Of a DNA stretch of 64,000 nt, positions 13,971-17,941 are shown piece after piece. The stretch's first letter is position 1, and the number at the start of each line of letters is the position of its first letter. A program made the position numbers and the translations under genes. The notes under the pieces are model-generated. The model worked only from the letters and a program-made list of their open reading frames with translations. It had not been told where the DNA came from and ran no database searches. Source of the stretch: Oceanidesulfovibrio marinus (GTDB lineage: Bacteria; Desulfobacterota; Desulfovibrionia; Desulfovibrionales; Desulfovibrionaceae); assembly GCF_013085545.1 (NCBI RefSeq), contig NZ_CP039543.1:310001-374000 (forward strand), written 5' to 3'.

Positions 13971-13996
13971 AAGGCAAGCTTCGGCTTGCCTTTTTT
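13971..13996 (+). terminator. Intrinsic terminator of the ribosomal super-operon
   Basis: AAGGCAAGC (13971-13979), a TTCG tetraloop and GCTTGCCTT (13984-13992) form a perfect 9-bp stem that runs into a TTTTTT tract. This is a textbook rho-independent terminator 25 bases after the rplQ stop. Confidence 0.93.
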
Positions 13997-14042
13997 CTTT
14001 GTGGAACTTATTTGCAGAAGAACAAATATCTATGAGGGACAT

Positions 14043-14975
14043 ATGGATTTTCGACGACTTGAGGCGTTTTGCAAGGTCTATGAGCTGAGAAGCTTTTCCC
14101 GCGCCGCTGCGGAACTTTATCTCTCCCAGCCGACCATCAGCTCGCACGTGTCCACGCTGGAGCGCGAGCTCAAGGTGCGTCTTTTCGATCGTCTCGGTCG
14201 CGAAGTCCATCCCACGCCGGCCGGAGATATCCTCTACCGCCATGGCAAGGAGGCGTTCAGCTCCCTGAACCACGCGGCCGCCGAAATCCAACTTCTGCAG
14301 GACCGCGTTGCCGGCGATCTTTTCGTTGGCGGGTCGACCATACCGGCCAACTACTTTCTGCCGGCCATGCTGGCCAAGTTCAAGGAGATCTACCCGGACG
14401 TCAACCTGTCCCTGGCGCTTGGCGACTCCCTGGAGATCGTCAAACGCGTTGCTTCCGGCGATCTGCAGCTCGGCGTCGTGGGCGCCGAGGAGGACATTCC
14501 GGACCTTGCCTTCATCGAGCTGCTGCAGGATGAGCTGGTGATCATCGCCGCGCCGCAGGTTGCCGGCGACATGCGCAGCTGCAAGTACGAGGAGCTCCGG
14601 CAGTTCCCGTGGGTCATGCGTGAGCCGGGCTCCGGCACGCGCAAGGCTTTTGAGAAGAATCTGCAGCAGATCGGCGGCGATGTCGCCGACTTCAACATGG
14701 TGATGACGGTTGAGGGGACCCAGGCCATTCTTTCCTGTGTCAAATCCGGGGTCGGACTCTCCATTGTCTCCAAGCTGGCTGCCGATTCGCTGCTTCAGTC
14801 CGGCGAGGTCGTACGGATCGAATGCCCGGACCTTGCCGAAATCCGACGGCATTTTTACTGTGTGTACCATGAGCGGCGCCATTACTTCCCGGCGGTCCGG
14901 TACTTCATGGCCTTCCTCAACGAGGAGTGCGGCCAGCAAGTCACTATGACCGACGATGACAGCGCCGCAGCCTGA
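14043..14975 (+). CDS. LysR-family regulator, selenium-metabolism type
   Basis: This is a 310-residue LysR-type regulator. ATG at 14043 is preferred over an upstream in-frame codon because GAGGGA lies 4 bases before it and MDFRRLEAFCKVYE is the usual LysR start. The winged helix-turn-helix occupies residues 1-60 (SFSRAAAELYLSQPTISSHV), and the co-inducer domain fills 90-300. It stops 23 bases before selD on the same strand. LysR proteins of this kind are known beside selenium genes in anaerobes. The role as a selenium-linked regulator is inferred from this neighbourhood; the effector is unknown. Confidence 0.88.
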   Translation: MDFRRLEAFCKVYELRSFSRAAAELYLSQPTISSHVSTLERELKVRLFDRLGREVHPTPAGDILYRHGKEAFSSLNHAAAEIQLLQDRVAGDLFVGGSTIPANYFLPAMLAKFKEIYPDVNLSLALGDSLEIVKRVASGDLQLGVVGAEEDIPDLAFIELLQDELVIIAAPQVAGDMRSCKYEELRQFPWVMREPGSGTRKAFEKNLQQIGGDVADFNMVMTVEGTQAILSCVKSGVGLSIVSKLAADSLLQSGEVVRIECPDLAEIRRHFYCVYHERRHYFPAVRYFMAFLNEECGQQVTMTDDDSAAA

Positions 14976-14998: not shown

Positions 14999-16072
14999 AT
15001 GTCCGAAAGGAACAACGTGCCCCTCGCCGAAAGCGTCACGGCGGCGGGTTGAGCTTCCAAGATACCTCCAGGGGACCTGGAGGAAGTTCTTGCCGAGATC
15101 GTGTCCGAGGACGACGATCGTGTGATACTCGGCTCCGCAGGGAACGAGGACGCTGCCATTTTGCGCTTTCCGCCCGGCAAGGCGCTGGTGCAGACGGTCG
15201 ATTTCTTCACGCCCATCGTGAATGATCCGTACGACTTCGGCCGCATTGCCGCGGCCAATGCCTTGTCCGATGTCTACGCCATGGGCGGCGAGCCGTACTC
15301 GGTCATGAACATCGTCTGTTTCCCCATCAAGACGATGGACAAGATCGTGCTCAAGCAGATTCTCAAGGGCGGGTACGACACCATCCGCGAGGCCGGCGCC
15401 GTTCTCGCCGGCGGACACAGCGTGGAGGACCCGGAGGTCAAGTACGGCTTGGCCGTTTCCGGCGTTATCGACCCGGACCGCTACGCCGCGAACAAGGCGC
15501 TCGCGCCCGGAGACCTCCTGGTGCTCACCAAACCCCTGGGAACAGGCGTCCTGGCCACGGCCATCAAGGGACGCTGGCAGGGGCAGGACGTTTTGGAAGA
15601 TATCCTGGTGCGTTGGGCGGCACGGCTCAACGCCTCGGCCGGGAAGGCCATTCTGGAGCACGACCTCAAGGCCGCCACGGATATTACCGGCTTCGGCCTG
15701 GGGGGCCACCTTCTGGAGATGGCCCACGCCTCCAGGATGGATGTCGACCTCTGGCTCGACGCCGTGCCGTTTATTGACGAGTCCCTGGAGCTGGCCTCCA
15801 TGGGACTTCTTCCCGCCGGCTCCTACGCGAACAAGGACTTTTGCCAGAAGGCCATTGTCCTCGCGGGCGGAGTCGGTGAGGGTGCCGACAGCCTGCTGCG
15901 GGTGGATCTCGTGTTCGACGCGCAGACTTCCGGCGGCTTGTTGTTGGCCGTTCCCGAATCACGCCTCGACGCTGTTCGCGCCATGCTTGAATCGAACGGC
16001 GACATCGCCGCTGTCGTCGGCCGGGTGACCGGCCCCGGCGACGGACGGCTCCGCATCCTCCCTTCTATCTAA
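14999..16072 (+). CDS. selD: Selenide, water dikinase; selenoprotein with in-frame UGA
   Basis: SelD makes selenophosphate from selenide and ATP for selenocysteine and 2-selenouridine synthesis. The gene must be read from ATG 14999 through an in-frame TGA at 15050-15052 to TAA at 16070, giving 357 residues with U at 18. The context AAG-U-ASKIPPGDLE matches the glycine-rich loop of E. coli SelD, so U18 stands at catalytic Cys17 and K21 at Lys20. A perfect hairpin follows the UGA (see separate entry). The rest is standard: NEDAAIL, DFFTPIVNDPYDFGRIAAAN, then TDITGFGLGGHLLEMA. A conventional gene finder would start at about 15101 and lose the catalytic N-terminus. No good ribosome site is visible before 14999. 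Confidence 0.93.
15050..15083 (+). promoter_or_regulatory. UGA codon with downstream bacterial SECIS-like hairpin in selD
   Basis: After the in-frame TGA (15050-15052) there are 12 bases, then CCTCCAGG (15065-15072), a GGA loop and CCTGGAGG (15076-15083). The stem is a perfect 8 bp, and the apical loop starts with G about 20 bases after the UGA. That fits the bacterial SECIS element, which is bound by SelB and carries a loop G within about 16-37 bases of the UGA. Specific SelB binding is inferred, not shown. Confidence 0.85.
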
Positions 16073-16096: not shown

Positions 16097-17941
16097 ATGA
16101 GCAAGGATTCTATGATCAATCCGGAAGTGCGTAATGTGGCCATCATCGCCCACGTCGACCATGGCAAGACAACTCTTGTGGACGCCATGTTCCGGCAGGC
16201 CGGCGTGTTCCGCGAAGGGCAGGAAGTGGACGACCGGGTCATGGACCGCCTCGACCTCGAACGCGAGCGGGGCATCACCATCGCCGCAAAGAACTGCGCC
16301 GTGAAGTGGAAGGACATCAAGATCAACATCATCGACACCCCGGGCCACGCCGACTTCGGCGGCGAAGTGGAGCGCTCCCTGTCCATGGCGGATGGCGCGC
16401 TGCTGCTCGTGGACGCCTCGGAAGGGCCGCTGCCGCAGACGCGTTTCGTGCTCGGAAAGACCCTGGATGCCGGGCTGCCTGTGGTCGTGGTCATCAACAA
16501 GATCGACCGCGCCGACGCCCGCCCGGACGAGGTGCTGGACGAGGTCTACGACCTCTTCATCGACCTGGACGCCGACGAAGAGCAGCTGGAGTTCCCCATC
16601 CTCTACGCCGTGGGCCGCGAGGGCCGCGCCTCTTTGGAAAAAGACGGCGGAACCGATCTGACCGAGCTGTTCGAGATGATCCTGAAAACGGTACCCGGAC
16701 CGGAAGCCGACCCGGACGCGCCGTTCACCATGCTTGTCTCGGACCTCTCGTACTCCGACTACCTGGGCCGCCTGGCCATCGGCAAGGTCCGTGCGGGCCG
16801 CGCACACACCCAGCAGGGGCTGATGCGCATCGGCGAAAGCGGGCAGCCCAAGGCGCTGAAGGTCTCCAAGCTCCAGACCTTCGAGGGCCTCGCCGTTGTG
16901 GAGACGGCGGAAGCGCGTCCCGGCGACATCATCGTGCTCTCCGGCGTGGAGGACGTGAACATCGGCGACACGATCTGCGACCCCGAGCGCACCGTACCGC
17001 TGCCGCGCATCACGGTGGAGGAGCCCACGGTCTCCATGCGCTTTGCCGTGAACACCTCGCCCCTGGCCGGCCGTGAGGGCGACAAGCTCCAGTCCCGCGT
17101 CATCCGCGAGCGCCTGAACCGCGAGATGCTCTCCAACGTGGCCATCCGCATCGAGGAGACCGATGAGAAGGACGCATTCCTGGTCAAGGGACGCGGCGAG
17201 TTCCAGATGGCCATCCTCATTGAGACCATGCGCCGCGAGGGCTTCGAGCTTAACGTGGGCCGGCCGCAGGTCATCACGCGTGACGAAGGCGGCGCCAAGC
17301 TCGAACCCATCGAACATCTGTACGTGGATTGCGACGAGGCCTTCCTGGGCGTGGTGACGGAGAAGCTGGCCACACGCAAGGGGCGGATGATCAACCTGGT
17401 CAACAAGGGCAAGGGCCGCGTGCGGCTGGAGTTCTCCATCCCCTCGCGCGGGCTCATCGGGTACCGCGACGAGTTCCTGACCGACACCAAGGGCACCGGC
17501 ATCATGAACTCGTACCTTCTGGGCTACGAGACCTTTCGCGGCGAGATCCTGTCGCGCTACACCGGCTCCATCGTCAGCGACCGCGCTGGAGGCGCCGTGG
17601 CCTATGCGCTCTTCAACCTGGAGCCTCGCGGCGAGCTCTTTGTCGCACCCAACGACCCGGTGTACGAGGGCATGATTGTGGGCGAGCACAACCGCGACAA
17701 CGATATCGACGTGAACCCCACGAAGGAGAAAAAGCTCTCCAACATGCGCGCCTCGGGCAAGGACGAGAACGTGATTCTCACGCCCGTGCGCGCCATGACC
17801 CTGGAGCGGGCCATCCACTTCATCCGCGAGGATGAGCTGGTGGAGGTGACGCCGGAGTCCATCCGGCTCCGCAAGGGCATCCTCCCGGCCAAGGACCGGC
17901 ACGCCATCGCCGGCAAGAAGAAAAAGGCCACGCAGGCTTAG
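16097..17941 (+). CDS. typA: Ribosome-associated GTPase TypA/BipA
   Basis: TypA is a translational GTPase of the EF-G class that helps large-subunit assembly, mainly under stress or at low temperature. The 614-residue product matches the family length. The GTP-binding motifs are HVDHGKTT (G1), RGITI (G2), [12 protein letters not shown] (G3) and NKID (G4). The EF-G-like domains follow, and the C-terminal TypA-specific domain holds [12 protein letters not shown]. An alternative ATG at 16112 (MINPEVRNV) has AAGGA just upstream and may be the true start. It is followed by a Na/Pi-type transporter gene. Confidence 0.96.

Follow-up and report, generated by a model that had tools for sequence, protein, structure and literature searches.

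The window analyzed here, a stretch of 64,000 nucleotides from Oceanidesulfovibrio marinus, contains a gene for selenide water dikinase (selenophosphate synthetase), selD, which is interrupted near its 5′ end by an in-frame TGA. The gene is followed by typA/bipA and preceded by a LysR regulator, and rpoA and L17 are located further upstream than the regulator. The features of the locus are as follows.

13986 to 14975, plus strand: LysR regulator matching the "selenium metabolism-associated" model NF040786 (293.6 bits; cut-off 250), start tentative.

14999 to 16072, plus strand: selD, selenide water dikinase, 357 residues when TGA is translated as U, with a predicted selenocysteine at residue 18; matches TIGR00476.

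15017 to 15019, plus strand: GTG at codon 7, a possible alternative start of selD, with AAGGA at 15007 to 15011 (by eye).

15050 to 15052, plus strand: TGA codon 18, predicted selenocysteine, aligned with Cys17 of 3u0o; TGA in 97 of the 98 alignable loci.

15065 to 15083, plus strand: predicted bacterial SECIS hairpin, with an 8 bp stem, a 3 nt GGA apical loop and 20 nt from UGA to loop.

15101 to 15103, plus strand: GTG at which the mechanical open reading frame list starts the gene (15101 to 16072, 323 aa), with the catalytic residue missing.

16097 to 17941, plus strand: typA/bipA, translational GTPase, the downstream neighbor of selD (TIGR01394, 886 bits; cut-off 757.3).

The LysR regulator, in which the profile match to the selenium-associated model starts at residue 20, directly adjoins selD on its upstream side.

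The frame that opens with ATG 14999 runs to the stop codon at 16070–16072, and the TGA at codon 18 is its sole interruption. This codon, which the original prediction had placed in the frame, is read directly from the sequence in the residue context VTAAG-U-ASKIPPGDLE. With the TGA entered as Cys for the profile and alignment programs, the translation matches the SelD equivalog model TIGR00476 at 337.6 bits (cut-off 125) over profile positions 3–309 of 311, a full-length match that continues across the TGA. Two narrower SelD models score below their own cut-offs (NF002098, 283.8 against 299; NF010705, 173.4 against 291). Alignment with the solved SelD chain 3u0o, which we take to be the E. coli enzyme, spans residues 4–350 (E 3.8e-59), placing the two proteins in the same enzyme family over that length. 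Codon 18 pairs with Cys17 of this chain, so that the TGA does stand at the place of the catalytic cysteine, as had been claimed; in 2yye, the other chain with a printed alignment, a Cys is likewise found opposite codon 18. The catalytic N-terminal position, at which a SelD carries Cys or Sec, is thus occupied by Cys in 3u0o and by a predicted Sec in the protein from the window. Coding conservation flanks the in-frame UGA on both sides, as is expected of a selenoprotein.

Initiation at either ATG 14999 or GTG 15017 would precede the TGA. By eye, the site upstream of the ATG is weak and the AAGGA sits five bases 5′ of GTG 15017, which is a possible alternative start. The upstream stretches of 30 relatives vary around the selD start. 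The mechanical list, which holds frames of 100 aa or more, enters the selD frame only from GTG 15101, and the loss of the N terminus expected of standard gene calls is therefore borne out.

An exact hairpin, CCTCCAGG-GGA-CCTGGAGG, begins 12 bases past the TGA. All eight of its pairs are Watson-Crick, and its position, stem and GGA loop agree with the earlier description. The model for bacterial SECIS elements (bSECIS), as far as it is set out in the part of PMC13188914 used here, calls for a loop of 3–9 nt with a G in the first two loop positions, an upper stem of 4–16 bp, a distance of 16–37 nt from UGA to loop and a minimum free energy of −7.5 kcal/mol or lower. The selD hairpin satisfies each of these constraints (3 nt, GGA, 8 bp, 20 nt and −13.2 kcal/mol for the hairpin by itself). 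The 46 nt from 15050 to 15095 fold at −18.1 kcal/mol (z −2.10), and 6 of 200 shuffled sequences were as stable or more so. Counting both strands, the window has 1585 TGA trinucleotides, and 16 of them, that of selD included, are followed by a hairpin of bSECIS geometry and at least the same stability (−13.2); a comparable hairpin was present in 70 of 9135 overlapping 60-mers taken every 7 bases along the plus strand. When selD was redrawn with synonymous codons and the protein held fixed, 276 of 20,000 sequences gave 8/8 pairs. On its own the hairpin is roughly a 1% event, and the case therefore rests on its conservation in relatives and on the conserved TGA. Rfam gave no match across the window at its gathering thresholds, which bears neither way on the hairpin.

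Conservation was followed in 101 loci, comprising that of the window, 46 from a collection of genome contigs and 54 from relatives. Since the SelD of the window served as the query, this set leans toward its relatives. Three loci (L063, L121 and L122) stop short of codon 18; among the 98 that can be aligned there, the codon is TGA in 97, including the locus of genome G017, and TGC in one. A SelD match was obtained in 55 of the 59 genomes searched, the window's own included. A wider draw from the order yielded matches with E values of at most 1e-60 in 249 of 297 genomes, and every match among those listed, which were the best by score, contains a TGA. For the loci from genome contigs, the closest named relative is a Solidesulfovibrio MAG with 60% identity.

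Under a strict test, which demanded an ungapped hairpin with an energy of −7.5 kcal/mol or lower for the hairpin alone, 53 of the 97 TGA loci qualified and 44 fell short. The failures comprise 31 of 45 genome-contig relatives, the closest named relative (L019) being one of the loci that fail, and 13 of 52 order-level loci. The order-level set (52 TGA loci, with that of the window) offers 416 stem cells, of which 385 are paired, against a mean of 374.0 (SD 1.79) when codons were exchanged among loci sharing the same residue in a column, a shuffle that ignores kinship; none of 2000 shuffles reached 385. Counting Watson-Crick pairs only gave 365 against a mean of 349.4 (SD 2.41), and again 0 of 2000 reached the observed value, kinship being ignored here too. 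The outermost stem pair of these 52 loci is G-C in 15, C-G in 11, T-A in five and T-G in four, and is unpaired in 17.

The genome itself (one contig of 4,761,435 bases, 99% complete) encodes the machinery for selenocysteine insertion. Both selA (610.4 bits) and selB (370.8 bits) are present above their cut-offs, and selC is represented by a tRNA-Sec match of 81.8 bits that ARAGORN also calls tRNA-SeC with anticodon TCA. The gathering score of the tRNA-Sec model (47) separates poorly, 5 of 14 control genomes passing it, and for this reason the ARAGORN call was used as well; in the window's genome a second match (47.1 bits) is classed by ARAGORN as tRNA-Ser. All three genes whose absence would have spoken against a selenoprotein are thus in place. 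A second, Cys-containing full-length selD would have done the same, and in a search of the whole genome at E 0.001 none was found, the SelD of the window being the single match. In-frame TGA codons also occur inside 2 of the 12 molybdopterin-oxidoreductase matches of this genome (L132 1768 and L134 1768), both in the context RI-U-HSATVAAL. This is presumably the Sec site of FdhA, and the two proteins are probably selenocysteine formate dehydrogenases.

The sole ortholog with a Cys codon is L098 (G009:C1:1157500-1159900). In its genome, G009, no SelB over the cut-off was found (best 192.2 bits against 242.25), and the best tRNA-Sec match reaches 47.9 bits against the gathering score of 47 and is called tRNA-Ser by ARAGORN; the matches in the window's genome and in G001, G014, G017, G050 and G053 score 75.5 to 84.7 bits. 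At the place of the SECIS element, all eight stem pairs of L098 are still of standard type, a single one being G-U. PMC1794560 mentions structures resembling SECIS elements 3′ of Cys codons. L098 is a probable case of a change from Sec to Cys after loss of the Sec trait, with a leftover SECIS element, although coding constraint could also have retained its stem.

The four genomes of the 59 in which a SelD match is missing are G001, G007, G030 and G050. In G007 and G030 no SelB exceeded the cut-off and no tRNA-Sec match the gathering score. G001 (330 contigs), the only other genome of the window's genus among the 59, gave no SelD match, although selB is present and its tRNA-Sec scores 81.6 bits. 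Comparison of G001 with the window's DNA from L17 to typA yielded three short matches only (92 bases at 73%, 53 at 79% and 39 at 90%), and as all of them fall within typA, the whole L17-LysR-selD-typA neighborhood is missing from this assembly; our guess is an assembly gap. G050 (490 contigs) has selB and tRNA-Sec and no SelD match. In G014 (430 contigs) a tRNA-Sec was found, no SelB passed the cut-off, and the SelD match is a piece that ends at a contig end, as does that of G053. The correlation between SelD and the Sec machinery is therefore not clean everywhere, with G050, G001 and G014 as exceptions.

Two other readings of the TGA were weighed. Readthrough of the UGA independent of selenium, by a near-cognate tRNA or general recoding, would place another residue at position 18. 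Sec-independent readthrough has been hypothesized for eukaryotic SPS1-UGA genes, according to the section of PMC4561486 consulted. The genome of O. marinus, however, encodes SelB and a tRNA dedicated to Sec, the hairpin conforms to the bSECIS model and codon 18 is the Cys/Sec position of SelD. Moreover, the lone locus without TGA encodes Cys, and in its genome no SelB passes the cut-off and the top-scoring tRNA-Sec match is called tRNA-Ser. Such readthrough is extremely unlikely here. That the TGA is a true stop, leaving either a pseudogene or a protein started at GTG 15101 without its catalytic residue, agrees with the frame in the mechanical list but is barely credible given a TGA kept in 97 of 98 loci, an otherwise intact frame, and a genome that offers no other SelD match while holding selA, selB, selC and FdhA-like genes with TGA. 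With the TGA conserved and the Sec machinery intact, the pseudogene and plain-stop readings were rejected.

The reading that remains, to which we assign a probability of about 0.98, is that the gene encodes a SelD with selenocysteine at residue 18, probably decoded from UGA through SelB and an mRNA hairpin. By analogy with the established pathway, a ribosome translating the selD mRNA would reach the UGA at codon 18, the hairpin 3′ of it would bind SelB carrying Sec-tRNA-Sec, and the codon would be decoded as selenocysteine at the catalytic position. The resulting enzyme is expected to convert selenide and ATP to selenophosphate, which SelA would in turn consume in making Sec-tRNA; because SelA needs selenophosphate for this step, SelD would help to make itself. 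One might further propose that the UGA acts as a selenium sensor, low selenium leading to a stop at codon 18 and thereby to altered downstream expression or to preferential initiation inside the gene at 15101; the adjoining LysR regulator would take part in this loop. This is conjecture, and we consider it very unlikely.

A selenocysteine-containing SelD is not new. SelD has been in print as a selenoprotein since at least 2006, Desulfovibrio included: the part of PMC1794560 considered here names FdhA and SelD as the most widespread selenoproteins and tabulates SelD of Desulfovibrio vulgaris and D. desulfuricans among them. In the section of PMC4561486 consulted, Sec is found in 19% of the SelD genes of reference prokaryotes, always at the same position, and bacterial SECIS elements were recovered for the Sec-containing genes. 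The protein of the window, like those of Desulfovibrio, has UGA at the catalytic position, and no substantive difference is apparent from PMC1794560, the comparison being with its table entries rather than sequence by sequence. As regards Sec-SelD systems, the hairpin resembling a bSECIS element occurs in the window and in relatives, and selA, selB and selC in the organism's own genome. As Sec-containing SelD is already published and, from the portions of these papers used, forms a well-documented selenoprotein family, the observation is correct but ordinary, and the surprise value attached to it is unsupported.

For annotation, the consequence is that gene callers reading TGA as a stop drop the catalytic residue of SelD. 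The model for tRNA selenouridine synthase gave no match in the genome at E 0.001, so that of the two uses of SelD covered here, selenoprotein and selenouridine synthesis, only the former is backed by genes. A selD with an in-frame TGA indicates that this genome uses selenocysteine.
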